64,000 nt of DNA from positions 992,001-1,056,000 of the forward strand of contig NZ_JASVWB010000002.1 in assembly GCF_030287445.1 (NCBI RefSeq). The letters are read 5' to 3'. A model generated the notes under the pieces. It was not told where the DNA came from and searched no databases. It worked only from the letters and a program-made list of their open reading frames with translations. Positions 26,123 through 61,388 of this stretch are shown one piece after another. Within the stretch, counting starts at the first letter, position 1, and each line of letters begins with the position of its first letter. The position numbers and the translations under genes are program-made. The DNA is from Streptomyces sp. ALI-76-A (GTDB lineage Bacteria; Actinomycetota; Actinomycetes; Streptomycetales; Streptomycetaceae).

Positions 26123-26164
26123 TGAGTCGTTTATGAGGGCAACGTGGAGTGAGGAGTGTGTTCC

Positions 26165-27843: not shown

Positions 27844-27866
27844 CTCACACCACCTTTTGACTCGTC

Positions 27867-27880
27867 TTATTGATAGAGTT
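27867..27880 (+). promoter_or_regulatory. TTATTGATAGAGTT motif upstream of paralogue 3
   Basis: This AT-rich word lies in a 74-bp gap before the ATG at 27918 and matches GATAG words in front of other array operons. TTGACT lies a little upstream but the spacing to TAGAGT is short (11 nt), so the architecture is not a standard sigma70 promoter. Confidence 0.4.
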
Positions 27881-27917
27881 GTCCTGGTATTCGAGTGAAA
27901 CGGCAAGTTGAGGACTA

Positions 27918-33471: not shown

Positions 33472-33569
33472 GAAGAGCGTTCGGCGGGACTCAATACCTT
33501 GTCCGGACGATGTGACTGATCGCGGCCGACTTGTCAGAGGGCAGTCGGAACGAACGGAAGGAAGAGATC

Positions 33570-35487: not shown

Positions 35488-35523
35488 ATTCAATGCCCTA
35501 TTGAATGCTACCGGTGATAGGAT
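35488..35523 (+). promoter_or_regulatory. inverted repeat plus GATAGGAT before the Clp-like gene
   Basis: ATTCAAT and ATTGAAT are a 7-bp inverted repeat around GCCCT (35488-35506). TAGGAT (35518-35523) is a good -10 box 11 nt after TTGAAT, the same odd spacing as at 27867. It likely combines an operator and a promoter. Confidence 0.5.
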
Positions 35524-35576
35524 TTCGACTGATTTTCCAGTTAAATCTTCAGTCCAGTCGAGAGGTCTTGCGCGGC

Positions 35577-38486: not shown

Positions 38487-38549
38487 ACCGGTCCGAGGAC
38501 GGCGGGAACGAGTCGACTCATGAGTCGATAGCCCATCCATGCCCCGTGA

Positions 38550-38579
38550 TTGCCTATCGCGATAGAGAGGCGATAAGAT
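38550..38579 (+). promoter_or_regulatory. probable promoter TTGCCT-18-TAAGAT with palindrome
   Basis: TTGCCT (38550-38555) and TAAGAT (38574-38579) are 18 nt apart. The 12-bp perfect palindrome CTATCGCGATAG (38554-38565) lies between them, and a second perfect palindrome, GACTCATGAGTC, lies about 40 bp upstream. This is a good candidate regulated promoter for the coiled-coil gene. Confidence 0.6.
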
Positions 38580-38629
38580 ACCCATAAACTAGGTGAACTG
38601 TGTTTTATTAACGGAGGGATCGCGCATCA

Positions 38630-40696
38630 ATGGGCATTCTGGGTACGGCAACGGGAAGCCGCAGGAAGGAGCGGAAGAAGAAGCCCGACGAGCTTCTGGC
38701 CTCCGTGGTGAGAGAAACGGCGATCCCGGCGGCGGTAGAGCTGCTGCGGTCGAACACGCAGTTCGTCTTTCCCAGCGGTACGGCCTGGGTGATGCTCGTG
38801 CTCGCAGCCGACTCGATCGGTGGCTTGAGCAAGCGGCACGGCCGGAACGAGGCGAAGGGCTCGATCATCGAGCTCATCAGCTCCGACCAGATCCGCACGG
38901 TGGCCACGGCGGAGATGCTCGAAGAGGAGGTCTTCGGCATCATCCCCACCGACGAGACTCTCGCGCGCATGGAGGAGTACTCGCTGCTCACCGGTGCCAC
39001 CTACGCCTGGGCCGTCGTGTGGCAGAAGCCCAGCGGCGATCTGCTCGTCGATCTCGTGAACGATGCGACCTTCGCGCAGGCACGCTTTGTCGCTGCAGGT
39101 ACCACGAGCCTCGAAGAAGCCGTGGGCAAGAAGGCATGGGAAGAGCACAGCGGCCTGGCCGCCGAGGCTGGAGCCACTGCCCCCGCGGTCCTCGGGGAGG
39201 ACGAGGGGGATGCGATCTTCGAGGGAATCCCCGGTGACGAGGGGGCTGCCAAGGGCCTGGACGACGAGCCGCTCTTCAGCGACGTCGTCGACGCGGATGA
39301 AGGGGCGGACGCACCCATGCTCGGCGAGGACGCCGCAGGTATCGACGACGCGGGCGCCGTCCCGGTCGAGTCGGAGCCGGACTACGACGGCGACGAGGTG
39401 GCCGGCTACGAGGGTTTCGACGAGACCGACGCCGGCTACGGCGTCGAGGGCGACTACCAGGAGGCCGGCGACACTGTGCTGCTGGCCGATCAGGCCCAGG
39501 TGCGCGACGTCATCGCCCGTCGGTTCCTCTCCGAGGAGCTGGACCTGGACGTCCGGCTCGATGAGTTCAACGCAACCTTCGCCATCGGCGCGCCGGTCGT
39601 GCAGATCGCTGTGCCCGAGGGCGCGACGAAGTGGCTCGGGGACCAGGTCGCCCAGCTCAACCGGCAGGCCAACGCAGACCTGATGCAGCTCCGTTCCGCG
39701 CATGAGGATGAGCTGCGTGCGCTCTACGTCAACCTCATGTCGGCGCACACCGAGCAGGTCATCCGCGATGTGGCCACCGACCGCGCGGGCTCCCGGTACA
39801 AGCTGCTGAAGGACGCCGCCGAGGCCGAGCACCAGCAGCGGCAGACGGAGAAGGATGAGAAGATCCGGGCCCGCCGGGCGGAGATCGCCAAGGACTACGA
39901 GTCTCAGGCCTCCAAGGTGGCCCAGCAGGCGGCGCTCTCGGCGGAACTGCAGTACAAGGAGCGCAACCGCTCGAAGATGGAGCGCGAGCAGACCGACTCC
40001 ATCGCCGGGATCGAGCGGGACATCGAGGACACCCACGCGCACAACCAGCAGGAGATCCTGCGGGTCCGGCGTTCGGACGCGACGCTGAAGATGCAGACCG
40101 GGCAGACGCGGATCTTCGAGGTGCTGGCCGAGCGGCAGTCAAAATACCTGGCGGCCGAGGAAGAGCGCCTGAACCAGTGGAAGTCCGAGATCCAGCGGAT
40201 CGTCGACGACAACCGCAAGGCCGACATCGCCCAGTCCGAGGCGCTGGCCGAGCACCTGCGGACCACGGACGAGATCGGCGCCCTGCGCCGGGAGCAGCAG
40301 GACCTCCTGGAGTCGGTGCGCTCTGAGCACGCCGACCGGATCCGCCGGATGGAGGACGAGCTCGAACGCAACCGCAAGGACGCCATCACGCAGATGACGG
40401 CTCGGGACGCCGAGTGGCAGCACAACCTCGACCTGGAGAAGGAGAAGACCAACTCCCAGGTGGCACGGGTCACCGACCTGCTCCAGCAGCTGTCGACGGT
40501 CGAGGATTCAGTGGCCAGGCGGTATGAGGTGCGCCTGGCGGAGATGCAGGCCGACAAGGAGTCCTACGCCAACGAGCTGGCGCGGGCCTCCGAGATGCAA
40601 AGCCGCTCGAACAAGATCCTCGTCGTCATGATCGTCACGCTCTCGCTCCTGATGGGCGCGGCCGGCTTCATCGTCGGGGTGGTCTTGACCCGTTGA
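38630..40696 (+). CDS. tail-anchored coiled-coil protein
   Basis: A 688-aa protein with GGAGGG upstream. Residues 1-150 are globular. Residues about 180-270 are extremely acidic (GEDEGDAIFEGIPGDEGAAK). Residues about 345-650 form a long charged coiled coil (RRAEIAKDYESQASKVAQQA, IERDIEDTHAHNQQEILRVR, SVRSEHADRIRRMEDELERN). The last 27 residues are a hydrophobic anchor (ILVVMIVTLSLLMGAAGFIV) leaving almost nothing outside. It resembles a cytoplasmic spacer or tether at the membrane. It is placed immediately before the coupling ATPase. Confidence 0.7.
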   Translation: MGILGTATGSRRKERKKKPDELLASVVRETAIPAAVELLRSNTQFVFPSGTAWVMLVLAADSIGGLSKRHGRNEAKGSIIELISSDQIRTVATAEMLEEEVFGIIPTDETLARMEEYSLLTGATYAWAVVWQKPSGDLLVDLVNDATFAQARFVAAGTTSLEEAVGKKAWEEHSGLAAEAGATAPAVLGEDEGDAIFEGIPGDEGAAKGLDDEPLFSDVVDADEGADAPMLGEDAAGIDDAGAVPVESEPDYDGDEVAGYEGFDETDAGYGVEGDYQEAGDTVLLADQAQVRDVIARRFLSEELDLDVRLDEFNATFAIGAPVVQIAVPEGATKWLGDQVAQLNRQANADLMQLRSAHEDELRALYVNLMSAHTEQVIRDVATDRAGSRYKLLKDAAEAEHQQRQTEKDEKIRARRAEIAKDYESQASKVAQQAALSAELQYKERNRSKMEREQTDSIAGIERDIEDTHAHNQQEILRVRRSDATLKMQTGQTRIFEVLAERQSKYLAAEEERLNQWKSEIQRIVDDNRKADIAQSEALAEHLRTTDEIGALRREQQDLLESVRSEHADRIRRMEDELERNRKDAITQMTARDAEWQHNLDLEKEKTNSQVARVTDLLQQLSTVEDSVARRYEVRLAEMQADKESYANELARASEMQSRSNKILVVMIVTLSLLMGAAGFIVGVVLTR

Positions 40697-40831: not shown

Positions 40832-43800
40832 ATGGCCACGAACAGGCGGAAGGCAACACGGCCGAAGGCGAGCAGCTGGGACAAGATCTCGGCGCGGACG
40901 CCCGGCGAGACGCTGACGAACCGAGACGTCCACGACAACCAGCAGCTGGACCGCAGCACGTTCCTGACTCTGAGGTCGACCAGACCGGGCATCGTCGTCG
41001 CGGTGATTACCGGCGTGCTGGTGACGATCGTCGCCTGGGTCTTCTACTCGCTCATCGCCACGGCGGTGCTCTCGGTGGGCGCGTCCGTGGGTTCGGGCGT
41101 GCCCGGCAACGGCACCGGCAAGCCGAGCGTGTACTACGTCCAGGACACCACGACGGGTGCGGGCGGCTCGGTCGTGAAGTGCTACCGGCCCCTGGCCAAG
41201 GACGGCAACCCGGACGTGAAGGCGAAGTGCTACCACAGCGCTGAGGCTGTTCCGGTCCCCAGCTGGTACACCGCGGCGAAGGACGGCAAGCCCAGCGCCG
41301 AGAAGCCGGCTGAGCCCAAGAAGAGCGCGACGACGGTCGGCGAGCAGCTGGCCGACGTCTCGGGGTTCAAGCTCTTCATCACGCTCGGCTCGGGTCTGAT
41401 GGTCGCCCTCATCATCGGTACGTGGTTCTCGCGGAAGGTCGCCGCGGCGAACCTGATGAACACCACGAGCGACATCAACCAGTACCAGAACGACCAGCAC
41501 ATCTCCCTGCCAGAAGAGATCCAGCAGAACTACGACTGGTTCCCTGACGCCGGTGCTCACTCAAGCGTGCAGGTCAGCTCGATGCTCAGCCACATGATGC
41601 TCAAGAAGAAGGGCCTGGGCACCGTCGAGGTCGCCCAGCGCGCCAAGAAGGACGTCATCGATGAGGAGGGGAACCTCGTCTACTACGCCGGCGAGGTCAT
41701 GGACGACGACGAGGGCGATTCGCTGACGCAGACCCTGCCGATCATCGACGAAGACTTCGGCAACGAGCTGTTCGAGGCATCCGGGCTCCCCGATGACAAG
41801 ACGCTGCGGCAGAAGTACGACACGGCACGGATCCCGTACAACCCTGACGGCAAGAACCGGGACAAGCTCGGCTTCGGATCGGACACGTACAAGACCGTCG
41901 CTGACCTGATCAAGAAGGACTGGGAGTTCCCGGCGTACGAGGTCCAGCGCCCGGCCGGGGCGTACGTGGTCGATACCGCGCCGGTGAACACCATGGTGCT
42001 GGCCATCACCCGAGCCGGTAAGGGCCAGACGTACATCGAGCCGATCATCGACATGTGGTCGCGGGAGAAGAAGCCCTCGAACATGGTCATCAACGACCCC
42101 AAGGGCGAGTTGTTGGTGAAGAACTACGTGCCCCTGGTCACACGCGGGTTCGAGCCGGTGCAGTTCAACCTGATCAACTCCATGAAGACCGACATCTACA
42201 ACCCCCTGGGACTGGCGGCCGACGCGGCGCGTGAGGGCAACTTCACCAAGTGCGCGCTGTACGTGGAGAACATCGCCGGGATCTTCTTTCCGCTCGACGG
42301 CGGCGAGGACCCGGTCTGGCCCAACGCCGCCAACAACGCCTTCAAGCGCGCGGCCTACGGACTCATCGACTTCTATCTGGAGGAGGAGCGGGAGCTGCGC
42401 AGCGCCGCAGCCGTGCTGAATATGGACCCGGCGCTGCTGGAGCAGAAGCTCGATGACCTCTGGGGCAAGGCCACGCTCTACAACTGCTACCAGCTCTTCG
42501 TGCAGATGAGCTCGAAGAAGATCAAGAACCCTGAGGCCGAGCTGGAGAAGCGGGTCAAGGCCGGCGAGTTCGAGAACAACGAGGACGCCCTGGCCGAGGA
42601 GCAGAAGAAGGCTGCGGCCCAGGCCTTCATGTGGGAGGGCAAGGCCGATCAGGACATGCTCAGCCTGTACTTCAACGCGAGCGAGGAGCTGCCCCGCAAC
42701 AACATGCGCACGCTGGTGGGCAACGCCCACAACGCGCTGCGCTCGATGGCCGGGGCGGAGAAGATGCTGGCCTCGGTGTACGGAATCGCGATCACCGCCA
42801 TGTCGTTCTTCACCGACCCCACGATCTCGACGCTGACCTCGGGCAAGCCCTCGCAGAACACCGACCTGGCCGGCCTGAGCTTCCCGCGTCGCCTCGGCGT
42901 GCGCTTCGCGCCGAACTACGTCAAGCGCGACCACCTCGTCGGTCAGCAGGCCGTGTGGTCGGCCTACGCGGACCCGATGTTCACCGAGAACCTGGGTGAG
43001 GACTTCGAGCACGAGGAGATCGTCGGCCGCGAGGGTTGGGCCCGGTACAACTTCAAGGGCAAGTTCCCTGACGACGAGGCCTGGCTCAAGCTGGAACTGG
43101 TCAACCCGCAGACAAAGATGCTGGTGCGCACCTTCTACTTCAGCTTCACGAAGAACTACCAGGTCTCGCTCAACGGCCGGCACTACGTGGTCGAGCCGGT
43201 GACGGGCAATAAGATCGTGAAGAACGGCGTGATGCGTGAGCTGAAGCCGGTGCGTGAGGGCGGCACCCGGGACGGGAAGATCCTGTCCTTCCAGCCCGGG
43301 GACACGCTCTACCCGGACACACGACTCGACTTCTCCGGCGTCGGCAACCCGGAGAAGGTCTCGTACCAGGCACGGGCGATCACGCAGACGCTGTCGCGCT
43401 ACTCGGAGTCCCCCAAGGCGCTGTTCCTGGTGGCTCCACCCCACCTGATGAAGTACGCGAAGCTGATCCTGATCCTGGTCAAGCAGCTGTTCGACGTGAG
43501 CGCCGACCAGGCGTACATGACGAAGTCGAACCAGAAGCCGCTCTATCGCACGCGGTTCATGCTCGACGAGCTCGGCAACCTGCAGTCCGAGGGCAAAGGC
43601 ATCGACGGCTTCGAGACGATGCTCTCCATCGGCCTGGGCCAGGAGCAGCAGTTCACGCTCATCCTGCAGACCCTGCAGCAGCTGCGCGACGTCTACGGCG
43701 AGAGCGTCGACAAGATCGTGCAGGGCAACACCTCGAACATCGTCTTCTTGAAGTCCACGGACGATTCGATGATCGAGACGCTGGAGAAGATGAGCGGCAA

Positions 43801-44878
43801 GACGCACCGGTCGTACCGTGACAGCAAGCAGATCAGCCAGGATCTCGACAAGGTCATCGGCGGCAAGACCGAGGGCCGGGTCTCCTACACGATGAACACC
43901 AAGGAAGAGCCGCTGATCAGCTACAACGACATGGCATTCCTCTCGCCGCGCAACTCGATCGTCTTCCGGGCCGGCGACGCGCCGATCTGGAACCGCAACC
44001 AGACGATCCTGCCGATGTCGTTCCGGCTGCTGGGCAACACGATCAAGCACCCGGGGCACACGTACTCGCTGCAGACGATCCCGACGCTGTCCAGTGCCAT
44101 GGACTTCGACGTGCGGATGAACCAGCCGGACTTCGTGAAGATGCTGGAGAAGCGCATGCGGCAGGCAGTCAAGGCCGCAGACGCGAAGGCGCAGTACAAG
44201 GAGATCTACGGCTACCAGGAAGTCGACATCGAGCGCCTGGATCCCGATGTCTACGCCGACGAGGTCATGGAGGTCATCACGACGATGACCACGGTCGACG
44301 AGGGCCAGGACCCCAACGCTCCGGTGGTCGTCGACCCCGACGCGTACGAGGGGATGAGCATGTTCGACGAGGACCAGTTCATCGAGAACGTCGAGGTCGG
44401 GGTTGCGGTCGCCGAGAGTCAGGCGGTCAGCGTCGAGCGGCAGCGTCTGCTCTACGCCGAGGGGACGATCAGCAAGGAGATGCTGGTCAACCCCGACGGC
44501 TCGGCGAAGGTCAAGAGCCTGGACATCGAGATCGGTGAGGCCTACAAGTCGGCGCAGACCGAGTTGGAACAGGATCGCGAGCACTTCTCGGTCGGCGGCG
44601 ACGGCGAGCTGCGCAGCGCCGACGGGTCTCAGACGTACATCAGCCAGATCCGCTCGGACGCGTACGCCCATGCGGCCCGCCGGATCAACGGCCATGTGAA
44701 CGACGAGGACTCGCGGGTGTTCGCGGAGGGGGACGTCACCGAGGAGGACCTGAAGTCCCTGGCGACGGTGATGGTCCACTCGGCCTTCTACCAGTACCTG
44801 GCCTCACTGCCGAGCTGGGAGGTGCTGGCCGACGGCCGGTTCGACCGGGCCATGGCCATCGAGATGAACTCGAAGTAG
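40832..44878 (+). CDS. VirD4/TraG-type coupling ATPase, very large
   Basis: A 1348-aa protein. Two membrane helices (about 53-83 and 178-203) flank an extracytoplasmic loop of about 95 residues. Walker A is AITRAGKGQT (391-400, Lys397), followed by MVINDPKGELLVKNYVPLVT and FNLINSMKTDIYNPLGLAAD, both typical of VirD4/TraG. Walker B is RFMLDELGNL (Asp912, Glu913), followed by SIGLGQEQQFTLILQTLQQL. Most coupling proteins are 500-700 aa; this one has about 250 extra residues between the motifs (470-860) and a 300-residue C-terminal extension. It should bind the relaxase-DNA complex and power DNA export. It is the only clear transfer motor in the window. Confidence 0.85.
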   Translation: MATNRRKATRPKASSWDKISARTPGETLTNRDVHDNQQLDRSTFLTLRSTRPGIVVAVITGVLVTIVAWVFYSLIATAVLSVGASVGSGVPGNGTGKPSVYYVQDTTTGAGGSVVKCYRPLAKDGNPDVKAKCYHSAEAVPVPSWYTAAKDGKPSAEKPAEPKKSATTVGEQLADVSGFKLFITLGSGLMVALIIGTWFSRKVAAANLMNTTSDINQYQNDQHISLPEEIQQNYDWFPDAGAHSSVQVSSMLSHMMLKKKGLGTVEVAQRAKKDVIDEEGNLVYYAGEVMDDDEGDSLTQTLPIIDEDFGNELFEASGLPDDKTLRQKYDTARIPYNPDGKNRDKLGFGSDTYKTVADLIKKDWEFPAYEVQRPAGAYVVDTAPVNTMVLAITRAGKGQTYIEPIIDMWSREKKPSNMVINDPKGELLVKNYVPLVTRGFEPVQFNLINSMKTDIYNPLGLAADAAREGNFTKCALYVENIAGIFFPLDGGEDPVWPNAANNAFKRAAYGLIDFYLEEERELRSAAAVLNMDPALLEQKLDDLWGKATLYNCYQLFVQMSSKKIKNPEAELEKRVKAGEFENNEDALAEEQKKAAAQAFMWEGKADQDMLSLYFNASEELPRNNMRTLVGNAHNALRSMAGAEKMLASVYGIAITAMSFFTDPTISTLTSGKPSQNTDLAGLSFPRRLGVRFAPNYVKRDHLVGQQAVWSAYADPMFTENLGEDFEHEEIVGREGWARYNFKGKFPDDEAWLKLELVNPQTKMLVRTFYFSFTKNYQVSLNGRHYVVEPVTGNKIVKNGVMRELKPVREGGTRDGKILSFQPGDTLYPDTRLDFSGVGNPEKVSYQARAITQTLSRYSESPKALFLVAPPHLMKYAKLILILVKQLFDVSADQAYMTKSNQKPLYRTRFMLDELGNLQSEGKGIDGFETMLSIGLGQEQQFTLILQTLQQLRDVYGESVDKIVQGNTSNIVFLKSTDDSMIETLEKMSGKTHRSYRDSKQISQDLDKVIGGKTEGRVSYTMNTKEEPLISYNDMAFLSPRNSIVFRAGDAPIWNRNQTILPMSFRLLGNTIKHPGHTYSLQTIPTLSSAMDFDVRMNQPDFVKMLEKRMRQAVKAADAKAQYKEIYGYQEVDIERLDPDVYADEVMEVITTMTTVDEGQDPNAPVVVDPDAYEGMSMFDEDQFIENVEVGVAVAESQAVSVERQRLLYAEGTISKEMLVNPDGSAKVKSLDIEIGEAYKSAQTELEQDREHFSVGGDGELRSADGSQTYISQIRSDAYAHAARRINGHVNDEDSRVFAEGDVTEEDLKSLATVMVHSAFYQYLASLPSWEVLADGRFDRAMAIEMNSK

Positions 44879-44911
44879 CCGACGGCCACTTGGGGGCCAG
44901 TCAAGGATCAC

Positions 44912-44963
44912 GGCCAGTGCCGAGGTCGTCTCTCGACTAAGGGAGACTGCCTCGGCACTGGCC
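44912..44963 (+). terminator. long stem terminator after the coupling gene
   Basis: GGCCAGTGCCGAGG (44912-44925) pairs perfectly with CCTCGGCACTGGCC (44950-44963), with an inner GTCTC/GAGAC pairing in the loop, followed by TTTCC. It separates the coupling ATPase and RNA polymerase transcripts. Confidence 0.8.
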
Positions 44964-44981
44964 TTTCCGGATGACCTCTCA

Positions 44982-44999
44982 CTTCCTTTCGATAGGAAG
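44982..44999 (+). promoter_or_regulatory. CTTCC-TTTCGATA-GGAAG operator/promoter element
   Basis: CTTCC and GGAAG form an inverted repeat around TTTCGATA. It is followed by TAGGCT and TATACAT, either of which could serve as a -10 for the polymerase gene at 45056. It belongs to the recurring GATAG set. Confidence 0.45.
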
Positions 45000-45055
45000 A
45001 GTAGGCTCTATACATACTTATGTAACCCCGAGCGTCCACAGGAGGCTGATTGACT

Positions 45056-48000
45056 ATGAAGAAGGCACACGGACTGCGCAGGTACTTCTATGAGCACGTC
45101 TACTACAAGGCAGTCGAGCAGGCCCGGGATCAGACCGGACAGGTCATCCCGATCTCCCAGGCCAAGGCGATCCGCGCCCGGGTCGACGAGATCCTCGGAC
45201 AGCGGGGCACCGCGCTGGCCGACCCGCGGCTGGGCGTCACGGACTGCCTCACCGCCATCGACCAGGCATTCGCGGAGAAGGTGTCCGACTACGAGCCGCA
45301 GTTCGGTGACCATTCCCCGCAGAACGAGAGCTACCAGCAGTCGCAGCGGGAGTTCATCCGTGCCACCGGCGTCGGTGCCCAGGCCGACCCAAAGTCGGCC
45401 CGGCTGCCGATCAGCCCCTACGACCCCGACTGGTCCGAACGCGCGACCGTGAAGCGCGCCGGGACTGCGCTGGTGTACCTGCCGGACGAGACGATCGCAC
45501 GCGTGGCCGGCGGCGAGGTGGAGACCCTGGCCGATCCCCATCGCGGAAACATGGTGCTCTGGCGCATCGACGACGAAGGCAAACCTTTCGAGGCCGGCCG
45601 AGCGATGACGAACGATGACGCCGCTGGGCTCACCGCGCTGATGGACAAGATGAGCCAGCAGGAGTACGACCAGGTCCGCGAGTGGGTCATCGACGGCGGC
45701 CGGGATCCCCAGACGAACCGTGTCGACCGCAACCGCTTCATGTCCCGGCGCGCCGTGGCACGCTCGGCAGCACTGCTCGAAGAGCTGAAGGCCCAGGGCG
45801 TGTCCTACGAGGTGATGCGCGACCGCGAGCCCGGTCAGATCAAGGCGAAGATCGCCCAGACCGGCATGGAGATCCGCCTCACCGACACGCGCCAGGAGGA
45901 GTACGCCGGAGCCCGGATCTATGACAACGGCACCGTGCTGCGCTACTCGACGAACTACCGGGTCCCCGGCGGCATGGCGGTCTACTCCCCCTCGCCGGCG
46001 GAAGCCGTTCAGCTGCTGCGCTTCGCCCAGGGCCACCGCATCGAGCGCACGGATCTGCCGGGGCACGCCGCCGGCGAGATCGGCACGACGCACCAGGAGC
46101 GCGGCCGTGGCCGCACGCTGGTGGATGTGCCCGACAGCTACCACGTCGACCGGGAGTCGATGTTCGTGGTCGGCGACTACGTGGCGCCCGGCGAGTCCGG
46201 TCCCCGGCCCGGGTCGAAGGTGATGCTGCGCCGGGACGCGAAGAACCGCTCCCTGCCGACCTTCTTCATCGACGCCGAGCCCGCTGAGGCCTACGCGAAG
46301 GCCGCCGTCGAGAGCGCGCGGGAGAATCTGCAGGCAGCTCTTGGCGTCGAAGACCTGATCGCTCGCGCTGAGGCCGAGCTGGAGCGAACCGGCGGACAGC
46401 TGGATGCGATCGAACCGCCGGAGTACTCGGCTGACTCCGAGGTCGCTGCGATCCAGCGCTCCTACTGGGACGTGCTCACCGGCGCGCACAGCGATCTGCT
46501 GCGCCCGGGCGCGACCGAAGAGATGTACCAGGAACGGCTGGAGGAGATTGGCGAGCTGCAGGCCGAGGAGGTGCCCGAGATGGGCAACCTCGTCTACGGC
46601 GGCACCGCCGTCGAGAAGGTCCGGCAGCACGCCGAGGACGTCCCCTTCGAACTCATCGGGACGTGGGAGGCGGAGCCCCACGACGTCGACGGCGAGTGGG
46701 TCGACCAGCGCTTCAACCCGGACCGGGTGGCGCGGTACATGACCAGCCCCACCGGGCAGTGGTCGAACCTCGACAACCTCGCCTCGGCGCTTCGTCGTTG
46801 CGGAATCTCCCCCGACGAGATGATGGGCTCGACCTTCCAAACGACCCGGTTCAAGGACCGGCTCGTCCGCTTCGACGCCGAGCGCTCCATGCCGATCGCC
46901 GATCACGAATCTGCGTTCATGCGGCGCATCGGGGCCACCGTGCGCGAGAGCATCGAGCGCAACGCGGCGACGGTCTCCGAGATCCTGGTCGACGAGCAGG
47001 GCGTCATCCGCTGGAGCGGCGAGAAGCAGCGCCGTGACGGCAAGGAGACTCCGATCTCGGGCGAGATCGGCCAGGTCTTCGATGTCGGCGAGTACGGCGA
47101 GATCACCACCGCCTTCGCCAGCGGGGATAACGCCCTGGTCGTGCCGGGCTACGAGGCCACGATCACGGCCCAGACTCCGGGCGAGGCTCCGACCTCGGTC
47201 GAGGAACGCACGCGCCTGCGCGGCTACGAGCAGCTCATGCACGAGCGCATCCAGTACCAGATCGCCGGCGACCTCATCGCCGGGCGCAGCGAGACCGGCG
47301 AGCCCTCCTCGCTCAACGCGCTCTACTCGCAGCTGTACGGCACGAAGCACCCGATCGACTTCATCGAGCGCGCCACCACGTACCAGCTCGACGAGTCCAC
47401 CGGCGAGATCAAGGAGCACCTGGACGAGTGGACGGCCGCGATCCTGCAGACCGAGGCGCGCCGTGTGCGCTATTCCAACGAGATCAAGGCCGGCTCGACG
47501 ATCTACGCCGAGTACCGGGCCCAGCGCGACCGGACTGACCCGGCTGACGACAACCGCTTCGACGCCTGGCGGCTCACCGGCGGGCGGAACATGACGGTAC
47601 TCACCGGCAAGGACCGGAACAACGTCGCTGCGCCCAGCGGCTACTTCGACCCGGTGATGACCGGAGGCGCGACCAACCAGGGCATCGTGCGGTACCTGAC
47701 CACTCAGGCCCAGGTCGACGCCGACGGCCGGATCGTGCCGGGCGACGAGAGCGTGGCCGGGCAGCGTGCGCCGCTCATGGCTCTCCCCGAGCTCAAGACG
47801 CTGCGGTACGACCCGTTCGACCGCCAGCAGATGACGGCTTCGACGATCATGCAGTCTTCTGAGGTCACCGCGCCGGCGAAGACGGCGCTGATGACCTTCG
47901 GCGGCTGGACGGCTGATGACCCGATCGTGGTGTCGAAGGAGTTCGCCGAGCGCCACCGCATCCGCGGAGCCGGCGGCCGGGAGCGCGATCTCGTCGTGGG

Positions 48001-50602
48001 CGACAAGATCTCGGATCTGCACGGCAACAAGGGCGTGATCTCGCTGATCGTCGACCGGGACATGCCGCTGCAGGACGCGCAGGAGCAGGATGTCGTCGAA
48101 GAGGTCAACTGGTTCCGGGCCAACCCGGGCCTGGACGTGGTGATGAGCCCGTTCAGCCTGATCTCCCGGCGCAACGCGGGCTCGGCGCGCGAGCTGATGA
48201 GCGGGAACGTCTCCGACCTGCGCTCCCCCAACGGAGAACTGCGGCCAAGTGCCCTGGGCGAGATGCGCTTCGTGGTCACCCACATGGCCGTCGACGAGAA
48301 GACGAAGATCTACAACGACGAGCAGGTGCGTGCTGGCAAGGGCCGCAAAGCCTCCTCGCAGCTGGCCTGGGCGCTGCAGTCTCAGGACTGCCCGGCGATC
48401 ATGCGCGAGTTCTACGGCCACAACAGCGGGGCCGAGTCGAACCTGCGCGAGTACCTGCTGGTGACCGGCATGGACATGGAGGCTGACGGCACGCTGCGGG
48501 TGGTCGGCCACGCCGAGGGCCTCGACGAGCGCCCCGAGCGCCGGTTCATCCCGATGCCCGAGCTGCTGCGCACTCAGCCGCGCAAGGAGGGCCAGCTCCC
48601 AGGGCTGAACACCACGGCGATGCGCAAGTCCTTCGGCGATCTCATCGGCGACCGCGGCGGCGACATGGAGATCCCGTTCCCGCTCACGTATCCGACCGGT
48701 GAGCAGACCGAGACGGTGAGCGCGAGCTCGTGGAAGCTGCCGGTGATGTCCTCGCATCTGCGCAGTGGCCAGGAGTTCGAGGACGGGTCCTCCGTCACAC
48801 ACGACTACACCCGCAGCTACCAGGACGTCTTCGTCGAGGCCTGCCGCTACCGCTACATGACCGAGCAGCTGGACGGCCAGGGCCTGTCCGCGGAGAAGCG
48901 CGCCGAGGTGCGCCGCAGCATGAGCGAGTCGGTCTCGCGCGCTCAGCGCGCCTTCGAGGCGATCACGACCGACATGCAGAACCGGGTGCTCACGGGCAAG
49001 AACAACATCTTCAAAACCGGGCTGATGGCCTCGCGGCTGACCGACTCGGCGACGATGGTGTGGACTGCGGACCCGCGGCTGGACGTCGACCAGGTTGCGC
49101 TGAGCTCGGTCAAGGCCGAGCAGCTGGGGCTGGCCGAGGGTGACCACGCGCTGGTGTGGCGTGACCCGGTGCTCCGTGACGCCGGCGTGCGTTACATGCG
49201 GGTCGCGATCGACGACCGGCTCACCGGTGCCGCGATCAACCCGGTGATGGACGCCTGCTTCGACGGCGACTTCGACGGCGACGCGGTCGCCGTGGTGAAG
49301 CTGCACAGCGAGGCCGCCAAGGGGGAAGCCCTGGCGAAGCTCTCGGTGCCGGCCAACCTGCTGGACACCGGCGTGGTCAAGGGCGACGGCTCGCACCCGC
49401 TGGCCATGCAGGTCTCGCTGGACACCCAGGTCGCGCTCTCCAAGGACACTGCTCTGGCTGAGGAGCTGGAGAGCTCGCGCAGCGAGGCGAACCGGCTCCG
49501 GCTGCAGTCGCTCACGGGCGCAGAGTCGCCTGAGGACATCAAGCTCGACCAGCAGGTCGTGACGGAGGAGCTGAGCGCGCTGTACCGCCAGGCGCAGCGT
49601 GGCGAGTTCGGCGCGGCACTGACGTTCTCGGACCGCGAGGCGCACCTGCAGAGCGTGCGCGAGGTCTGCGTCGAGACCGGTGCCAAGGGCAGCGAGAAGA
49701 AGCTCACCGACTACGCCCGGAACCTGGGCGATGCGCAGGGCACGCCCGGCATCACGCAGGCCGACCAGGAAGCCTCGATGTTCGCCACGGCAATCAAGGC
49801 TCACGGCACCGGCCTGGGCGGCTCGTTCAGCCAGCGCGCCGTGCGCGCGCTGCGCGGCGAAGACCTCAAGGCCGTCCTGGAGGTCACCTACCCGGTGACC
49901 CAGTCGATCCTGCAGGCCAAGCACGACGCCGCCGAGGCCCGGCATAAGTACGCGATGCTCCAGGGCCCCGGCCGCGAGCTCTGGAGGGGCCGCAGCATCG
50001 AACACGTCGGCCCCGGTCAGTGGCGCACGGCATTCCTCGACGGTGAGCCCGTCCAGGCCACGGCCGAGGAGTGGGAGAAGAAGTTCATCGAGTTCTACGA
50101 GTCCAAGGAGGGCTTCGGCGTCACGGTCAACCCGGACTACGTGGCCCGCGTGGCCAGTTCGCTGGAGGACCCGAAAACCGGGCTCATCCGCAACCTCGAA
50201 GAGGACCCGTCGCTGCGGGGCACCGTGATGGACCGGATGGCCTACGGCGGTGGCTTTGAGGCGCTCGTGCAGGCGGCCAAGAACCGCGAGAGCGTCTACG
50301 ACGGCGAGAAGAACGAGCAGTTCGCGTCCTCGGGGACCCGGAAGGCCCGGGCGGAGATGTCCCGGCAGCTCGATCAGCTGAGCTCCGCCGAGGCGCAGGG
50401 CCTGGACAGCGCTGCGATCGCCGTCGATGACTCGGCGGTCAAGCGCGACGTGATCTCTCAGGACGCGGGGACCGCCCGCACCCGCGGCTCGCACCGCCGC
50501 TCTGCGCATGCCGTGGGCGTGGGCGCGTCGCGCCCGGTCTACACGCCGAGCATCGAGATCGATCAGCCGCAGGGCGACGACGACTACGGGGCGGGCTACT
50601 GA
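45056..50602 (+). CDS. single-chain multisubunit-type RNA polymerase (beta/beta' fusion homologue)
   Basis: The ATG at 45056 lies 10 nt after AGGAGG (a TTG at 45050 is possible); the product is 1848 aa. The beta-like part has GGWTADDPIVVSK (949-961), matching the beta motif GYNFEDAIVIS, then GDKISDLHGNKGV (982-994). Lys984 and Lys992 have the 8-residue spacing of the two catalytic-site lysines of beta. The beta'-like part has WRDPVL (Arg1369), aligning with NRAPTL, and DFDGD with Asp1405, 1407 and 1409, the Mg-binding triad. Both double-psi barrels are therefore present in one chain, in beta-beta' order. Cellular beta plus beta' is about 2700 aa, so this is a compact form. It should make RNA from DNA. 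Sigma dependence is unknown and no sigma gene was recognised nearby. Confidence 0.9.
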   Translation: MKKAHGLRRYFYEHVYYKAVEQARDQTGQVIPISQAKAIRARVDEILGQRGTALADPRLGVTDCLTAIDQAFAEKVSDYEPQFGDHSPQNESYQQSQREFIRATGVGAQADPKSARLPISPYDPDWSERATVKRAGTALVYLPDETIARVAGGEVETLADPHRGNMVLWRIDDEGKPFEAGRAMTNDDAAGLTALMDKMSQQEYDQVREWVIDGGRDPQTNRVDRNRFMSRRAVARSAALLEELKAQGVSYEVMRDREPGQIKAKIAQTGMEIRLTDTRQEEYAGARIYDNGTVLRYSTNYRVPGGMAVYSPSPAEAVQLLRFAQGHRIERTDLPGHAAGEIGTTHQERGRGRTLVDVPDSYHVDRESMFVVGDYVAPGESGPRPGSKVMLRRDAKNRSLPTFFIDAEPAEAYAKAAVESARENLQAALGVEDLIARAEAELERTGGQLDAIEPPEYSADSEVAAIQRSYWDVLTGAHSDLLRPGATEEMYQERLEEIGELQAEEVPEMGNLVYGGTAVEKVRQHAEDVPFELIGTWEAEPHDVDGEWVDQRFNPDRVARYMTSPTGQWSNLDNLASALRRCGISPDEMMGSTFQTTRFKDRLVRFDAERSMPIADHESAFMRRIGATVRESIERNAATVSEILVDEQGVIRWSGEKQRRDGKETPISGEIGQVFDVGEYGEITTAFASGDNALVVPGYEATITAQTPGEAPTSVEERTRLRGYEQLMHERIQYQIAGDLIAGRSETGEPSSLNALYSQLYGTKHPIDFIERATTYQLDESTGEIKEHLDEWTAAILQTEARRVRYSNEIKAGSTIYAEYRAQRDRTDPADDNRFDAWRLTGGRNMTVLTGKDRNNVAAPSGYFDPVMTGGATNQGIVRYLTTQAQVDADGRIVPGDESVAGQRAPLMALPELKTLRYDPFDRQQMTASTIMQSSEVTAPAKTALMTFGGWTADDPIVVSKEFAERHRIRGAGGRERDLVVGDKISDLHGNKGVISLIVDRDMPLQDAQEQDVVEEVNWFRANPGLDVVMSPFSLISRRNAGSARELMSGNVSDLRSPNGELRPSALGEMRFVVTHMAVDEKTKIYNDEQVRAGKGRKASSQLAWALQSQDCPAIMREFYGHNSGAESNLREYLLVTGMDMEADGTLRVVGHAEGLDERPERRFIPMPELLRTQPRKEGQLPGLNTTAMRKSFGDLIGDRGGDMEIPFPLTYPTGEQTETVSASSWKLPVMSSHLRSGQEFEDGSSVTHDYTRSYQDVFVEACRYRYMTEQLDGQGLSAEKRAEVRRSMSESVSRAQRAFEAITTDMQNRVLTGKNNIFKTGLMASRLTDSATMVWTADPRLDVDQVALSSVKAEQLGLAEGDHALVWRDPVLRDAGVRYMRVAIDDRLTGAAINPVMDACFDGDFDGDAVAVVKLHSEAAKGEALAKLSVPANLLDTGVVKGDGSHPLAMQVSLDTQVALSKDTALAEELESSRSEANRLRLQSLTGAESPEDIKLDQQVVTEELSALYRQAQRGEFGAALTFSDREAHLQSVREVCVETGAKGSEKKLTDYARNLGDAQGTPGITQADQEASMFATAIKAHGTGLGGSFSQRAVRALRGEDLKAVLEVTYPVTQSILQAKHDAAEARHKYAMLQGPGRELWRGRSIEHVGPGQWRTAFLDGEPVQATAEEWEKKFIEFYESKEGFGVTVNPDYVARVASSLEDPKTGLIRNLEEDPSLRGTVMDRMAYGGGFEALVQAAKNRESVYDGEKNEQFASSGTRKARAEMSRQLDQLSSAEAQGLDSAAIAVDDSAVKRDVISQDAGTARTRGSHRRSAHAVGVGASRPVYTPSIEIDQPQGDDDYGAGY

Positions 50603-50603
50603 G

Positions 50604-52343
50604 ATGGCACAGCACAAGGAACTGGGAACGGGCCCTGCGGGCCGCCCGCGCGCGGCCAAGGAGCTTCCGGTGGACGACGATCGGCAGCAGGCCGACGAGC
50701 CGCAGAGCAGCGCATACGCCTACTGGGAATCGCGCTCGAACGAGCCGATCGACGCCGAGGTGATCGACGAGCCCGGACCGGAGGACGCAGACGGTTCGCG
50801 CGCCTGGCGCGAGCGGCTCCGGGACCGCGCCCGCGGGTTCTTCGGCGCGAAGACACAGGAGCAGATGGCCGACCGCGAGCGCGTGCACTGGATCGACGTC
50901 GACCGGGCAGAGGACGAGACCGAGGGCCTGGACCAGCGCGAGCAGCTGCTCAAGCTCCGGGCGGAGACGCGGCTGGCCGGCGAGAAGTACATGGCCTCGC
51001 TGCGTGACTCGAAGCTGCTGGTGCCCGGCTTCAACGACGAGGAACGGACGCAGGAGCTCGGCGTCATGCACCACGTCTACATGCAGATGATGATGCAGTC
51101 GTGTCTCAAGCCGCTCTCGCGCGGGGTGAATGCCAACTCGATCATCCAGGCCGTCGGCATGGTGATGACGATGCGGATGCTCGCCCCGGACTTCAGGAAG
51201 GAGATGGACAGCTACCTTCAGCCCCTCAAGGACAAGATCCAGGAACGCATCGACACCAGGACCCGCGGCATGATCGCCTCTGCCGAGAGCGGCATCGCGC
51301 ACCGGCAGAGGATCTTCAAGGACGTGCCGAGCGACGCCCGGCGCGAGCGCCTCATCGGCAGCACCGATCCGCGTGACCACCTGACGAAGAAGTGGCGCAA
51401 GCGCTTCGACGCCATGCAGCACCGTGAGCGCGGCCACCGGGAGATGTTCACCCCGGACTCGGCAGCCATGACCGAGGTGGCGCTCATGGAGAACGCCTTC
51501 TGGAAGATGCGTGAGCCGGGCGCGGATGCCGGCCTGATCCGCGACAGCTACCAGGCGATGCGCAAGCGGCTGCACGAGCAGATGCGCGAAGACGGCCTGG
51601 AACGCCAGGAGGTCGTCCAGCGCGCGCGAATGATCATCGGCGAGCGGATGGAGTACGAGCCCGAGCTGCGCACGATGTTCAACGGCGTGGCCCACGGCCG
51701 GATCGTCAAGGCTCCCGCGCACGAGGAGCGGATCGCAGGCTCCGACCGGGTCCGCACGGTCTGGAGCGGGGAGTTCGACGACCAGCTGGGTCAGCGTCTG
51801 CCCGAGGACGGGATGTTCACGCTGCGCCGGCCCATGGACGCGGACGCCCACCAGGTCCAGCTCGCCGAGACGATGAAGACCTCGCTGCTCGACGCGCTGG
51901 GCCGCGGCGACCAAGAGGGCTACGGGGGCAACATGCTCGGCTACCTGGTCGGCTTCGCGGCACAGAAGCAGGGCCTGGACACCAGCGGACTGCCCGACAC
52001 GCTCCAGCACCGCCTGGACCAGTCCGAGGTGATGATCGCGAGCATGGACATCGACGGCCTGCCGCCCGAGGAGCAGCAGCGGGTCTACTCCAACGCTTAC
52101 GTCGACGCGATGGAGGCGGTGAACGAGAAGTACCCGGATCTTGAGACCGAGCTGAAGCGGAGCCTCGGGGAGAACTGGCAGCAGACGCTGCAGACGGCGG
52201 TCGACGACCCGGGTGCCTTCTTCGAGGAGCAGCGGCTCAAGCCGCGGTCGCGCCCTACGGGTCCGTCGTCCGAGCAGGAGGCCGGCCCGCAGAACGAGAG
52301 CCCGAACGCTGAGGCCGATTCCGAGGACTACCAGCCCGCCTGA
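50604..52343 (+). CDS. unknown protein encoded with the RNA polymerase
   Basis: A 579-aa protein beginning 1 nt after the polymerase stop, so almost certainly co-translated with it. The N-terminal 85 residues are acidic and disordered. Residues about 95-400 are helical with a Met-rich stretch (MHHVYMQMMMQSCLKPLSRG, AVGMVMTMRMLAPDFRKEMD). The C-terminus is helical then Pro/Glu-rich. No known polymerase-associated domain (sigma, alpha, omega) was recognised. Tight coupling suggests a partner, loader or specificity factor of the polymerase. Confidence 0.65.
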   Translation: MAQHKELGTGPAGRPRAAKELPVDDDRQQADEPQSSAYAYWESRSNEPIDAEVIDEPGPEDADGSRAWRERLRDRARGFFGAKTQEQMADRERVHWIDVDRAEDETEGLDQREQLLKLRAETRLAGEKYMASLRDSKLLVPGFNDEERTQELGVMHHVYMQMMMQSCLKPLSRGVNANSIIQAVGMVMTMRMLAPDFRKEMDSYLQPLKDKIQERIDTRTRGMIASAESGIAHRQRIFKDVPSDARRERLIGSTDPRDHLTKKWRKRFDAMQHRERGHREMFTPDSAAMTEVALMENAFWKMREPGADAGLIRDSYQAMRKRLHEQMREDGLERQEVVQRARMIIGERMEYEPELRTMFNGVAHGRIVKAPAHEERIAGSDRVRTVWSGEFDDQLGQRLPEDGMFTLRRPMDADAHQVQLAETMKTSLLDALGRGDQEGYGGNMLGYLVGFAAQKQGLDTSGLPDTLQHRLDQSEVMIASMDIDGLPPEEQQRVYSNAYVDAMEAVNEKYPDLETELKRSLGENWQQTLQTAVDDPGAFFEEQRLKPRSRPTGPSSEQEAGPQNESPNAEADSEDYQPA

Positions 52344-52384: not shown

Positions 52385-52750
52385 ATGAGCCAGGAACAGA
52401 ATGAGGGACAGCAGGTCAGGTTCGGCTCACGTTTTGCGCGGATGTTCGGCTACGTCACGCCGGAGGACCGGAGCCGATGGGAGCAGCAGCGGGCGCAGAA
52501 CAAGCCGAGCGTCAACGCGACCAAGCAGGGCACGAAGTCATTGCTGGGCTCGATGATGGAGTTCGGGGAGCGCAACATCGGCGCGAAGCTCGATGCGGCC
52601 CACCGCGTGGCAGCGCAGCAACGGTTCGAGGAGTCCCACGACAAGGTCGTGAATCAGCGCCGCGATCCGAACACGCGGAACATCATCGAGTCGGTCGACT
52701 ACGAGCCCAAGGACGACCGGGAGGAGATCGAGCCGGATCTGGAGCTCTAG
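52385..52750 (+). CDS. small charged array protein (121 aa)
   Basis: AGGAGGAAGG precedes the ATG at 52385. The product is hydrophilic, with a basic first half (GSRFARMFGYVTPEDRSRWE) and an acidic tail (DREEIEPDLEL). It is the last gene before a new promoter-like region. No family recognised. Co-transcription with the polymerase operon is likely from the 41-bp spacing. Confidence 0.55.
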   Translation: MSQEQNEGQQVRFGSRFARMFGYVTPEDRSRWEQQRAQNKPSVNATKQGTKSLLGSMMEFGERNIGAKLDAAHRVAAQQRFEESHDKVVNQRRDPNTRNIIESVDYEPKDDREEIEPDLEL

Positions 52751-52817
52751 CCGAATGGGCAATGACAAGCGTAGCCAGCGGCACTCCATAAGATCGCCTC
52801 TCCTTCTCGACTCGCGA

Positions 52818-52833
52818 CTATCTTCGATAGACT
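52818..52833 (+). promoter_or_regulatory. CTATC-TTC-GATAG element with TAGACT box
   Basis: A 5-bp inverted repeat around TTC (52818-52830) overlaps TAGACT (52828-52833), a good -10 box. It lies about 50 bp upstream of the HU-like start and belongs to the recurring GATAG set. Confidence 0.5.
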
Positions 52834-52883
52834 GGATTCTAAGCGAAACCGTGACATGAAGGACGACAAGACAGGGTGTGGGT

Positions 52884-53268
52884 ATGGAGACGACGACGAA
52901 TCCGCGTGTCAGTAAGCGCGAGTTCATCTCTCGGGTCGCGACTCGCAGCGGGTTGCCGGTCCGAGTGGTGAACAAGGTGTACGAGTCGTTTGCTCGGTGA
53001 ACTCACGGGCGCGGTCAGCTGTGGGGAGACGGTCGTGCTCACGAGCTTCGGCCGCTTCTACCGACAGGATCACAAGGGCCACAAGGTGCGCTTCGGCAAG
53101 AGCGACGTCGACAACTACGTGGTGCTGAAGTTCTCCGCGTCGAGCAGCTTCAACCGCCGGCTCGGGGGCAACGAGGACGAGATCTCACCGGAGAACTACG
53201 GGATGATCGAGGATGCCGACGAGTTCGAGAACGTCATTGAGGATCGTGAGTTACGGGCCGCATCGTAG
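52884..53268 (+). pseudogene. HU/IHF-like DNA-binding protein with an apparent frameshift
   Basis: The frame from ATG 52884 gives NPRVSKREFISRVATRSGLP, then VRVVNKVYESFAR and a stop. The frame one base over continues with GELTGAVSCGETVVLTSFGR, then FYRQDHKGHKVRF. Joined, these reproduce the HU fold: two N-terminal helices, the GExVxLxxFGxF strand and the arm region. Removing one T from TTT at 52989-52991 would restore the frame as VYESLLGELTG. Possibilities are a sequencing error, a real null mutation, or a +1 programmed shift. HU-type proteins bend DNA at transfer origins and replication sites. Confidence 0.7.
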
Positions 53269-59063: not shown

Positions 59064-59132
59064 CGGCACGCCGATACTGGCTGTCACCGTCACGCGTGTG
59101 TGTTCACGCTGCGTGAGAGGGCTGGTGGTCAG

Positions 59133-60518
59133 ATGCCAGGTCATGAGGACCAGACACGGCTGGAGCGGGCTCAGGCGATCGGCCTGTTCCGCTACATGCT
59201 GATCAGGGAAGCGGCTGATCCGACGCTGTCGCGTCGCCAGCGCGGGGCCTTGGTGCGGCAGCTGGCGTCGATGACGCACGTCGATCCCGACGGCCGGCCG
59301 GTGAGGATCACCCGGTGGACGCTGGACCGGTGGATCTACGAGTGGAAGCGGGCCGGGTTCGAGGCGCTGGTTCCCTCACCGAGGCAGTCCCGGCCCCACA
59401 CCCCGCAGGAGATCCTGGACCTGGCCGCGGCGCTGAAGAAGGAGAATCCGTCGCGGTCGGCGGCACAGATCCGGCGGATCATCGGCGCTCAGCGGGGCTG
59501 GGCCCCGGATGAACGCACCATCCAGCGGATGCTCATACGCGAAGGGCTGAACGCCCTGAACGTCCCGGCGACGCCCGCTGTTTTCGGCCGGTTCGAGGCG
59601 GACGGCCCCAACGAGTTGTGGACCGGGGACGCTCTGCACGGGCCGATGGTCGCCGGCCGCAAGACCTATCTGTTCGCGTTCATCGACGACCATTCGCGGG
59701 CCGTGATGGGACACCGCTGGGGCTTCGCGGAGGATACTGTCCGCCTTGCCGCAGCCCTGCGGCCAGCCCTCGCCTCGCGAGGCATTCCGCGCTACATCTA
59801 CGTCGACAACGGCTCCGCGTTCGTCGACTCCTGGCTCCTGCGGGCCTGCGCGAAACTCGGCATCAAGCTCGTGCACTCCGTACCAGGACGGCCGCAGGGC
59901 AGGGGCAAGATCGAACGGTTCTTCCGCGCGGTGAACAGCGAGTTCGTCGTCGAGATCGCCTCCGGCGACGGCAAGCCGGGACGACAGATCGACAGCCTGC
60001 TGGAGATGAACCGGCTGTTCACGGCCTGGACCGAGAACGTCTACCACCGCCGGGTGCACTCCGAGACCGCAGCAGCACCGCTGGCCCGCTGGATGGGCGA
60101 CCGGCCACTGACTGTCCCCAACCCGTCCGACCTCGCGGAAGCCTTCCGCTGGTCAGAACACCGCACCGTGTCCAAGACGGCGCTGGTCTCCCTGCACGGA
60201 AACCGCTACCAGGTCGACCCGCTGTTGGTCGGACAAAGAGTCGAGCTGGTCTTCGACCCCTTCGACCTGTCCTTCCTGCGGGTGCGTGTCCAAGGCCAGG
60301 ACGCCGGGACCGCGCTGCCGTTCCAGGCCAGCCGCCATTCCCATCCCAAAGCCCGACCCGAGACCCCGGCCGAGGAACCTCGACCGACGACCGGCATCGA
60401 CTACCTCGCATTGATCGACACCACCCATAAGGCCGACATCGCCGACAAGGTCAATTACGCGGCCCTGGGCGAACTGACGCCGCCCGTGTTCGACCTCACC
60501 GAACTGCCCAGCGAGTAA
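59133..60518 (+). CDS. DDE transposase (TniA/IstA-like)
   Basis: A 461-aa protein from the ATG at 59133. N-terminal HTH regions (ITRWTLDRWIYEWKRAGFEA, SAAQIRRIIGAQRGWAPDE) precede an rve-type core with Asp in LWTGDALHGPMV, Asp in RYIYVDNGSAFVDSW and Glu in RGKIERFFRAVNSE. A C-terminal Mu-transposase-like beta domain (LVSLHGNRYQVDPLLVGQRV) follows. It would act with the downstream ATPase, as in Tn5053/IS21-type systems. Confidence 0.8.
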   Translation: MPGHEDQTRLERAQAIGLFRYMLIREAADPTLSRRQRGALVRQLASMTHVDPDGRPVRITRWTLDRWIYEWKRAGFEALVPSPRQSRPHTPQEILDLAAALKKENPSRSAAQIRRIIGAQRGWAPDERTIQRMLIREGLNALNVPATPAVFGRFEADGPNELWTGDALHGPMVAGRKTYLFAFIDDHSRAVMGHRWGFAEDTVRLAAALRPALASRGIPRYIYVDNGSAFVDSWLLRACAKLGIKLVHSVPGRPQGRGKIERFFRAVNSEFVVEIASGDGKPGRQIDSLLEMNRLFTAWTENVYHRRVHSETAAAPLARWMGDRPLTVPNPSDLAEAFRWSEHRTVSKTALVSLHGNRYQVDPLLVGQRVELVFDPFDLSFLRVRVQGQDAGTALPFQASRHSHPKARPETPAEEPRPTTGIDYLALIDTTHKADIADKVNYAALGELTPPVFDLTELPSE

Positions 60519-60547
60519 CCCAGGCCGCAACCTCTCGGAGGAAAAGC

Positions 60548-61358
60548 ATGATCGACAAGCTCCAGGCCCACTACGGATTCAACCGAATGCCCTTCGGCCG
60601 AGACCTCGCCCCAGGCATGCTGCACCGGCACGCGTCACACAACGAGGCCGTCGCCCGCATCACCTGGTGCATCGCCGAACGCTCCATTGGCGTCGTCACC
60701 GGCGAGGTCGGCGCGGGCAAGACCGTCTCCGTCCGCACCGTCCTGCACAGCATCGATCCGTCGAAACACACCGTGATCTACCTGCCCAACCCCCATGATC
60801 GGGGTCCGCGGCATCCACGAGGCCATCGTCACCGCCTTCGGACAGCAGCCCTCCCACCTCGGCTCCCGCCTCACCGCCCAGACCGGCCTCGCCCTCGCGG
60901 CCGAGCGCGAAGAACGCGGCCGGACCCCCGTCCACGTCATCGACGAGGCCCACCTGCTGTCCTACGAACAGCTCGAAGCCATCCGCATGCTCACCAACCA
61001 GGCCATGGACCAGGACTCGCCACTGTCCTGTCTGCTCGTCGGCCAGCCCACCCTCCGCCGGACGATGAAACTCGCCGTCCTGGCCGCCCTCGAACAGCGA
61101 ACCGCCCTGCGCTACACGATGCCCGGCATGACCTCCACCGAGACGGCCAGCTACATCAAGCACCACCTCGGCCTCGCCGGCCGCAGCGATCAGCTGTTCA
61201 CCGACGACGCGGTCACGTTGATCCACACCACCGCGCGAGGCTTCCCCCGCGCGGTCAACAACCTCTGCCTACAGTCTCTCGTCGCCACGTTCGCGGCAGG
61301 CAAATCCCTCGTCGACGAGAAGGCGGCACAGTCCGCCGTCACCGAAGTCCTCGACTAA
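60548..61358 (+). pseudogene. TniB/ExeA-like AAA ATPase, frameshifted
   Basis: GGAGG precedes the ATG at 60548. The first frame gives MIDKLQAHYGFNRMPFGRDL and the P-loop GEVGAGKT, reaching LPNP at about 60791. The frame one base over continues with MIGVRGIHEAIVTAFGQQPS, Walker B VHVIDEAHLL, and a C-terminus ending AAQSAVTEVLD at 61358. One extra C in a run of five at 60790-60794 separates them. Without it the protein would be an intact target-selection ATPase of about 270 aa. Sequencing error or an inactivating insertion are both possible. Confidence 0.75.
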
Positions 61359-61388
61359 CTGGCTGCGAGAGCAGAGGCAACACCACGG

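Follow-up and report, generated by a model that had tools for sequence, protein, structure and literature searches.

A probable single-chain, two-barrel RNA polymerase encoded in a conserved MobL-VirD4 transfer module of Streptomyces

The gene described here lies in a 64,000-nucleotide stretch of the Streptomyces sp. ALI-76-A genome (contig NZ_JASVWB010000002.1, positions 992,001 to 1,056,000; hereafter the window, whose numbering is used throughout). On the plus strand, at 45056-50602, a frame of 1,848 residues that translates without internal stops almost certainly encodes a real and conserved polymerase-type enzyme. Its product has two halves, one RpoB-like and one RpoC-like, with their active-site residues in place and the RpoB flap missing, and the gene is under purifying selection within a conserved gene order. 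On balance, we think that it is a catalytically competent single-chain, two-barrel DNA-dependent RNA polymerase (RNAP), a core gene of a transfer module with a MobL relaxase and a VirD4-type coupling protein, and that it would transcribe the DNA of its element without the host core polymerase. A sequence-only reading of the same DNA had proposed such a single-chain enzyme, and sequence profiles together with two confident AlphaFold2 models, searched against the PDB, bear the proposal out.

GGAGG precedes the ATG at 45056, and the open reading frame list gives an alternative start, TTG, 6 bases upstream. An N-terminal region of about 600 residues (aa 1-618; 45056-46909), folded in the model with a predicted local distance difference test score mostly near 90 across aa 10-480, is followed by the RpoB-like half (aa 619-1141; 46910-48478; aa 619-1083 when delimited more narrowly) and the RpoC/Rpb1-like half (aa 1142-1760; 48479-50335). 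In the former, GGWTADDPIVVSK (aa 949-961; 47900-47938) is the counterpart of RpoB ..EGHNYEDAIILSQ in the RpoB profile alignment, a match that is weak alone and collinear with the rest. Family alignment, profile comparison and motif counts agree on the beta active-site lysines, K984 and K992, which stand 8 residues apart in GDKISDLHGNKG (47999-48034; GDKISDLHGNKGV over aa 982-994). In the latter half, WRDPVL (aa 1368-1373) contains WRDP (49157-49168), the counterpart of RpoC NRAP(TLH) by profile comparison and gapless scan, and DGDFDGD (49262-49282) supplies the metal-binding residues D1405, D1407 and D1409, again by family alignment, profile comparison and motif count. The sequence-only reading had placed beta motifs and then beta' motifs in one frame, with the 8-residue lysine spacing, and they were located in that order. 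It was also right about the three metal-binding aspartates; the motif that it quoted as DFDGDFDGD reads CFDGDFDGD (aa 1401-1409).

Profile searches tie both halves to cellular RNA polymerase. PF00562 (RNA_pol_Rpb2_6) matches aa 975-1055 at E 4.7e-8, over the Pfam cut-off, and PF00623 (RNA_pol_Rpb1_2) matches aa 1357-1426 at E 1.9e-4, just under it (22.1 bits, cut-off 25.3). A hidden Markov model (HMM) of the family, built from a 64-row alignment of aa 700-1760 of actinobacterial and Bacillota relatives, matched 183 different sequences in the PDB at E <= 0.001, of which the best 60 listed are RNA polymerase large subunits throughout; RpoB chains reached 2.8e-15 and RPB1-type chains reached 1.5e-12. 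In profile-profile comparison, aa 1213-1462 aligned with RpoC at 98.0% and E 1.7e-13 (RpoC of 18 loci), and aa 969-1047 with RpoB at 96.6% and E 6.7e-10 (a profile of 2 sequences); the window genome's own RpoC and RpoB were added to these profiles. Weaker blocks of similarity to RpoB (aa 854-927, 913-934 and 943-965) keep the collinear order, each insignificant alone. The AlphaFold2 models, compared as whole halves, match RpoB and Rpb1 along most of their length, with PDB fold matches beginning at about aa 619; QDE-1 and the phi14:2 RNAPs fall outside the fold matches listed, which has no bearing on relatedness. Both a polymerase fold and profile matches around residues 940-1410, on which the sequence-only reading had staked its proposal, were thus found.

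The flap is gone from the RpoB-like half: between two aligned blocks, RpoB has about 125 residues where this chain has 3. Beyond the RpoC barrel, a gapless profile scan matched the trigger-loop segment of RpoC (GEPGTQLTMRTFHTGG) to TYPVTQSILQAKHDAA (aa 1611-1626; 49886-49933) at z 5.27, the next best position scoring 3.13; this z lies between the 90th and 95th percentile of the best scores of 300 random RpoC windows, true homologues included. The segment carries His1623, which falls at the place of the RpoC trigger-loop histidine (E. coli H936). We call it trigger-loop-like because of the window scan and because P.TQ.....[KR]H is conserved in 248 of 272 family proteins. The same scan placed the GARG F-loop segment of RpoC on aa 1538-1555 (z 5.54). 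Past the barrel, hhalign gave no trigger loop and a weak F-loop match (probability 0.4%). No bridge helix was found by the gapless scan (its best scores, z 3.2 to 3.4, fell elsewhere), and a long predicted helix at aa 1568-1620 suggests itself for that part. Invariant in the 64-row alignment are K984, K992, W1368-P1371, D1405, D1407, D1409, A1543-G1545, T1615, Q1616 and K1622, and H1623 is nearly so.

The family spans two phyla and is thinly distributed. Residues 880-1700, searched against about 5.8 billion proteins, matched 547 at E <= 0.001 out of 7,991 candidates scored. Of the 120 that were listed, most of those bearing a name are "hypothetical protein," and some are called "DNA-directed RNA polymerase" or "RNA polymerase Rpb2." A Staphylococcus seed gave 71 proteins, with annotated RNA polymerase subunits among the weaker matches, and a Rhodococcus seed gave 460, of which 120 were listed. 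From a set of 303 proteins, 31 (P0165-P0195) were excluded as cellular-type or doubtful, leaving 272 with the window's own included. Both active-site lysines are present in all 272 (264 by a pattern allowing a spacing of 8 or 9, and 8 by reading), as is DxDGD, on which the set was not preselected. Relatives in Bacillota are 25-29% identical to the window's polymerase. The gene was present in 5 of 199 Streptomyces genomes, counting that of the window, and a Rhodococcus homologue run against 396 genomes of the phylum gave a full-length match solely in the window's genome and short matches in 45 others. Among 29 loci from those 45 genomes, motifs identified 17 RpoC frames and 1 RpoB frame, the remaining 11 having no motif-bearing frame of at least 900 aa in the stretch examined. 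The family is thus sporadic and detectably related to cellular RpoB/RpoC. Most sampled Streptomyces lack the gene, and the element shares 97% DNA identity over 34 kb with one relative; patchy presence with such identity is as expected of mobile DNA.

Across the whole gene, the ratio of nonsynonymous to synonymous substitution rates (dN/dS) is 0.16-0.29 against four relatives; in the RpoC-like half it is 0.11-0.20. Because the plus-strand frame has homologues, a third-position GC content of 0.92 and low dN/dS, we rejected a chance or antisense frame; the minus-strand frame at 45008-50659 is its high-GC mirror.

The polymerase gene stands in a row of plus-strand transfer genes. Upstream are a MobL relaxase (31145-33433; PF18555, E 7.6e-115), a ClpA/ClpB-like AAA+ ATPase bearing an intein-like LAGLIDADG insert (35505-38486), a conserved 688-residue protein of no family with a hydrophobic C terminus, here called X (38630-40696), and a 1,348-residue VirD4/TraG-like coupling protein (40832-44878), whose nearest NCBIfam model is CD1115, scored under its cut-off. 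Downstream lies a second conserved protein of no family, Y (50508-52343 as the longest frame), whose true start is probably just behind the polymerase stop, as annotated in a Streptomyces plasmid, L038. Neither X nor Y gave anything convincing against PDB sequences. A relaxase and a VirD4-type coupling protein, both markers of type IV conjugation, are thus present, and the conjugation-like setting recognized by the sequence-only reading holds, with a reservation over VirB4 taken up below. In a genome-contig scan biased by patterns drawn from close relatives, the order AAA-X-TraG-RNAP-Y recurred on one strand in 31 of 32 loci, at polymerase identities of 48-99%; the other, a Clostridia contig, starts inside the polymerase gene and still has Y. 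Plasmid pGS01 of Rhodococcus repeats the order, with X matched over a short piece alone, and so does pGKT2 of Gordonia, again with a short-piece match to X and with Y undetected by BLAST. Three related staphylococcal plasmids (pAYP1020, SAP020A and pHD75-1_1) encode MobL, a Clp-type ATPase, a VirD4-type protein and the polymerase in that order, with other genes between. In all three a topoisomerase gene, annotated as type III in two, follows a few genes behind. Two relatives (G480 and G516) have two more inserts, one of 1.38 kb at 35756 in the Clp-like ATPase gene and one of 1.08 kb at 43728 in the gene of the coupling protein, both probably inteins.

The polymerase ends in an acidic-hydrophobic tip, QPQGDDDYGAGY (50564-50599), picked out by conservation and by tip scoring. 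Behind a variable linker, the last 6 to 8 residues are conserved across 159 nonredundant members of both phyla (0.85 bits at positions -2 to -8, against 0.32 at -12 to -45), with 2.16 acidic residues per 7 against 0.55. The tip reads DDYGMGY in many Streptomyces, GFELEM in Staphylococcus, and DDGFEL or DDYQL elsewhere; a Plantibacter polymerase ends EDFQP, resembling the EDYQP end of Y in other loci. The relaxases of the three staphylococcal plasmids end similarly (EYEIEL, DIELEL and DIELDI). These relaxases are homologous: measured against the pAYP1020 relaxase, the other two have 76% and 47% identity, and the alignment of the 47% one ends before its tip, which thus reappears past a diverged region. 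We scored proteins with the tips of the other phylum, covering all 65 annotated in pAYP1020 and, in stretches of the others, 26 of 31 in pGS01, 26 of 34 in pGKT2, 33 of 35 in L038 and 32 of 36 in pJM4A; these shorter lists omit incomplete genes and a number of others, some transposases included. The polymerase ranked second of 32 on pJM4A and third of 33 on L038, where its 121-aa neighbor ending EPDLEL ranked first. We read the tip as a putative docking or export signal, whose partner may be the coupling protein, the Clp-like ATPase or another protein. In the window, acidic tips also occur on neighboring soluble proteins: EDYQPA on Y, EPDLEL on the small conserved protein at 52385-52750 (+), and VDEPAVG at 33531-34118.

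Around this module, the match to one relative (G519) is contiguous over 20787-55254 and continues in patches to 76306, to the right of the window. It takes in a phage-tail-lysozyme-type protein (23731-25965, +) and a small protein (52990-53268, +) whose syntenic L038 gene is annotated as an HU-family DNA-binding protein. Just left of the stretch common to relatives are a 1,243-aa protein (15043-18774, -) and a 758-aa tyrosine recombinase (12293-14569, -), which lies outside that stretch and so may not be the element's integrase. A Rve/Mu-type transposase with an AAA ATPase at 59100-61396 (+) is likely a transposon inside the element. Within the gaps, CGATAGGATACTCATAAACCAGGCG upstream of X is conserved in several genera, TCTATACATA.TTATGT is conserved upstream of the polymerase, and GATAG[AG], a k-mer picked post hoc after inspection, recurs at 25966-26155, 27844-27917, 38487-38629, 44879-45055 and 52751-52989. 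All three are candidate promoter or regulator sites.

In the reading that we favor, the module is carried by mobile elements in Actinomycetota and in Bacillota, and the polymerase would transcribe the DNA of its own element independently of the host core polymerase. The sequence-only reading had suggested two roles, expression of the element's genes independently of host sigma factors and transcription of transferred DNA in the recipient; both are conjectural, and the second draws indirect support from the conserved tip, although the Streptomyces relaxase has none. That it is also delivered to the recipient and acts there is tentative, a little short of an even chance. In that case, it may enter with the relaxase-bound strand, as an injected phage virion polymerase does, and start transcribing the incoming element ahead of the host polymerase. 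A fuller version, in which the tip marks the polymerase as a substrate of the transfer machine, the Clp-like ATPase would unfold it for passage, and the machine may run without a VirB4 ATPase, is speculative and, taken whole, rather unlikely.

Several observations weigh against these proposals. Activity, template and timing are what we infer, and in one of the 32 loci (L035) the polymerase frame is broken. No VirB4 was recognized in the window's element with PF12846, NF045971 and TIGR00929, or in pGKT2, pAYP1020 and pGS01 with PF12846 and TIGR00929, which may reflect sequence divergence or real absence. For want of a recognizable VirB4, transfer by the module is itself putative, and the Streptomyces element may need help; pGKT2 is reported to transfer under laboratory conditions (PMC5640721). 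The Lactococcus member lies apart from transfer genes in the stretch examined, and PF02534 recognized no coupling protein on its plasmid. On pAYP1020, MobL ranked 4 and the polymerase 6 of 65 by tip score, with two uncharacterized proteins and an SSB above them, and the tip may therefore serve as a docking peptide in general. In Streptomyces, MobL is without the tip (it ranked 21 of 33 in L038), Y ranked 30 of 33 in the same plasmid, and the Rhodococcus and Gordonia polymerases were unremarkable (8 of 26 and 4 of 26).

A polymerase that never leaves the donor, its gene being transcribed by the host and the enzyme in turn transcribing the element's transfer genes, is a serious possibility, if not one that we would back. 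YonO transcribes SPbeta late genes (PMC5467207), several module genes are preceded by gaps of 74-239 bp in which GATAG motifs recur, and a TATACAT-like conserved stretch in the gap before the polymerase gene resembles a host -10 box. However, the GATAG motifs, besides being chosen post hoc, can also be read as ordinary actinobacterial -10 boxes, and action in the donor only leaves the conserved tip unexplained by itself. The enzyme might instead lay down short RNAs on the transferred single strand that start complementary-strand synthesis in the recipient, a model that we liken to the transferred SogL primase of ColIb-P9 and its proposed role. We judge this improbable: SogL transfer is mentioned in PMC8406263, and a place next to the relaxase and coupling-protein genes would suit such a role, but the Rpb1-like half is at full span with F-loop- and trigger-loop-like segments, and family searches found no primase family in the polymerase.

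Loss of polymerization in favor of a structural or regulatory role is more improbable still. Where RpoC has N458, the 2'-OH recognition residue, the members that we read carry D, G or S, and scores against the curated rpoB and rpoC models are far under their cut-offs (20.7 bits against 896 and 18.5 against 801); the catalytic residues are nevertheless kept in every one of the 272 proteins, and dN/dS in the RpoC-like half is low, as given above. A fused or decayed copy of host rpoB-rpoC would account for the collinearity with RpoB and then RpoC, but we rejected it as scarcely credible: the genome keeps rpoB and rpoC elsewhere, the family spans two phyla with Bacillota relatives as divergent as stated, and the protein has its own N-terminal region and no flap.

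The favored reading, an RNAP serving its own element, has partial precedents. YonO of the Bacillus phage SPbeta is likewise a single chain with a DxDGD triad (DNDGD), and PMC5467207 describes the type as an active, processive polymerase that requires the Asp triad. Both it and the window's polymerase lack the flap (for YonO, PMC7824862), and two-barrel RNAPs described from mobile elements are likewise without the flap insert. YonO, however, has 839 aa against 1,848, is carried by a phage rather than a transfer module, and is described in PMC5467207 as without trigger-loop homology, whereas the window's polymerase has the trigger-loop-like segment; when a single YonO sequence was compared with the family profile, no similarity could be detected (hmmsearch E 8.9, hhalign 0.2%). 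The tape-measure-fused virion RNAP of Thermus phage P23-45 (PMC10770324) ties a two-barrel RNAP to a DNA-delivery machine, there as part of a 5,002-residue virion protein, while delivery of the window's polymerase is hypothetical; no direct match joins the latter to these Thermus phages. A 251-kb IMG/VR contig (L089) encodes a 2,037-aa relative (27-28% identity), close to which lie genes for a homologue of Y and a DUF11-repeat protein. The 23 kb examined there gave no match to any transfer gene of the window, and the best phage matches of L089, both weak, are tape-measure proteins of G20c (E 0.02) and P74-26/P23-45 (E 0.04). Phage matches to the family were few, 4 weak phage records and 2 IMG/VR contigs (one matching almost the full query at 28%, the other a short part of it); phages in these collections thus seem to carry the gene rarely, and we set a phage origin aside. 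From cellular beta and beta' the protein differs in lacking the flap, in its extra N-terminal region, in being one chain and in residing on mobile elements. Among the open-licence papers listed in literature searches we found no RNAP in a conjugative module apart from a label in PMC7824862, and the statement of the sequence-only reading that it knew of none described in a conjugative array was too strong. An RNAP in a conserved transfer module is more than that reading could show and less novel than it supposed.

If active, this compact one-chain enzyme, with most RpoB/RpoC core parts and no flap, would be a model for the function and evolution of multisubunit RNAP. If our reading is true, conjugation-type elements in two phyla can carry transcription independent of the host core polymerase, which would bear on host range and on the first expression of incoming DNA.
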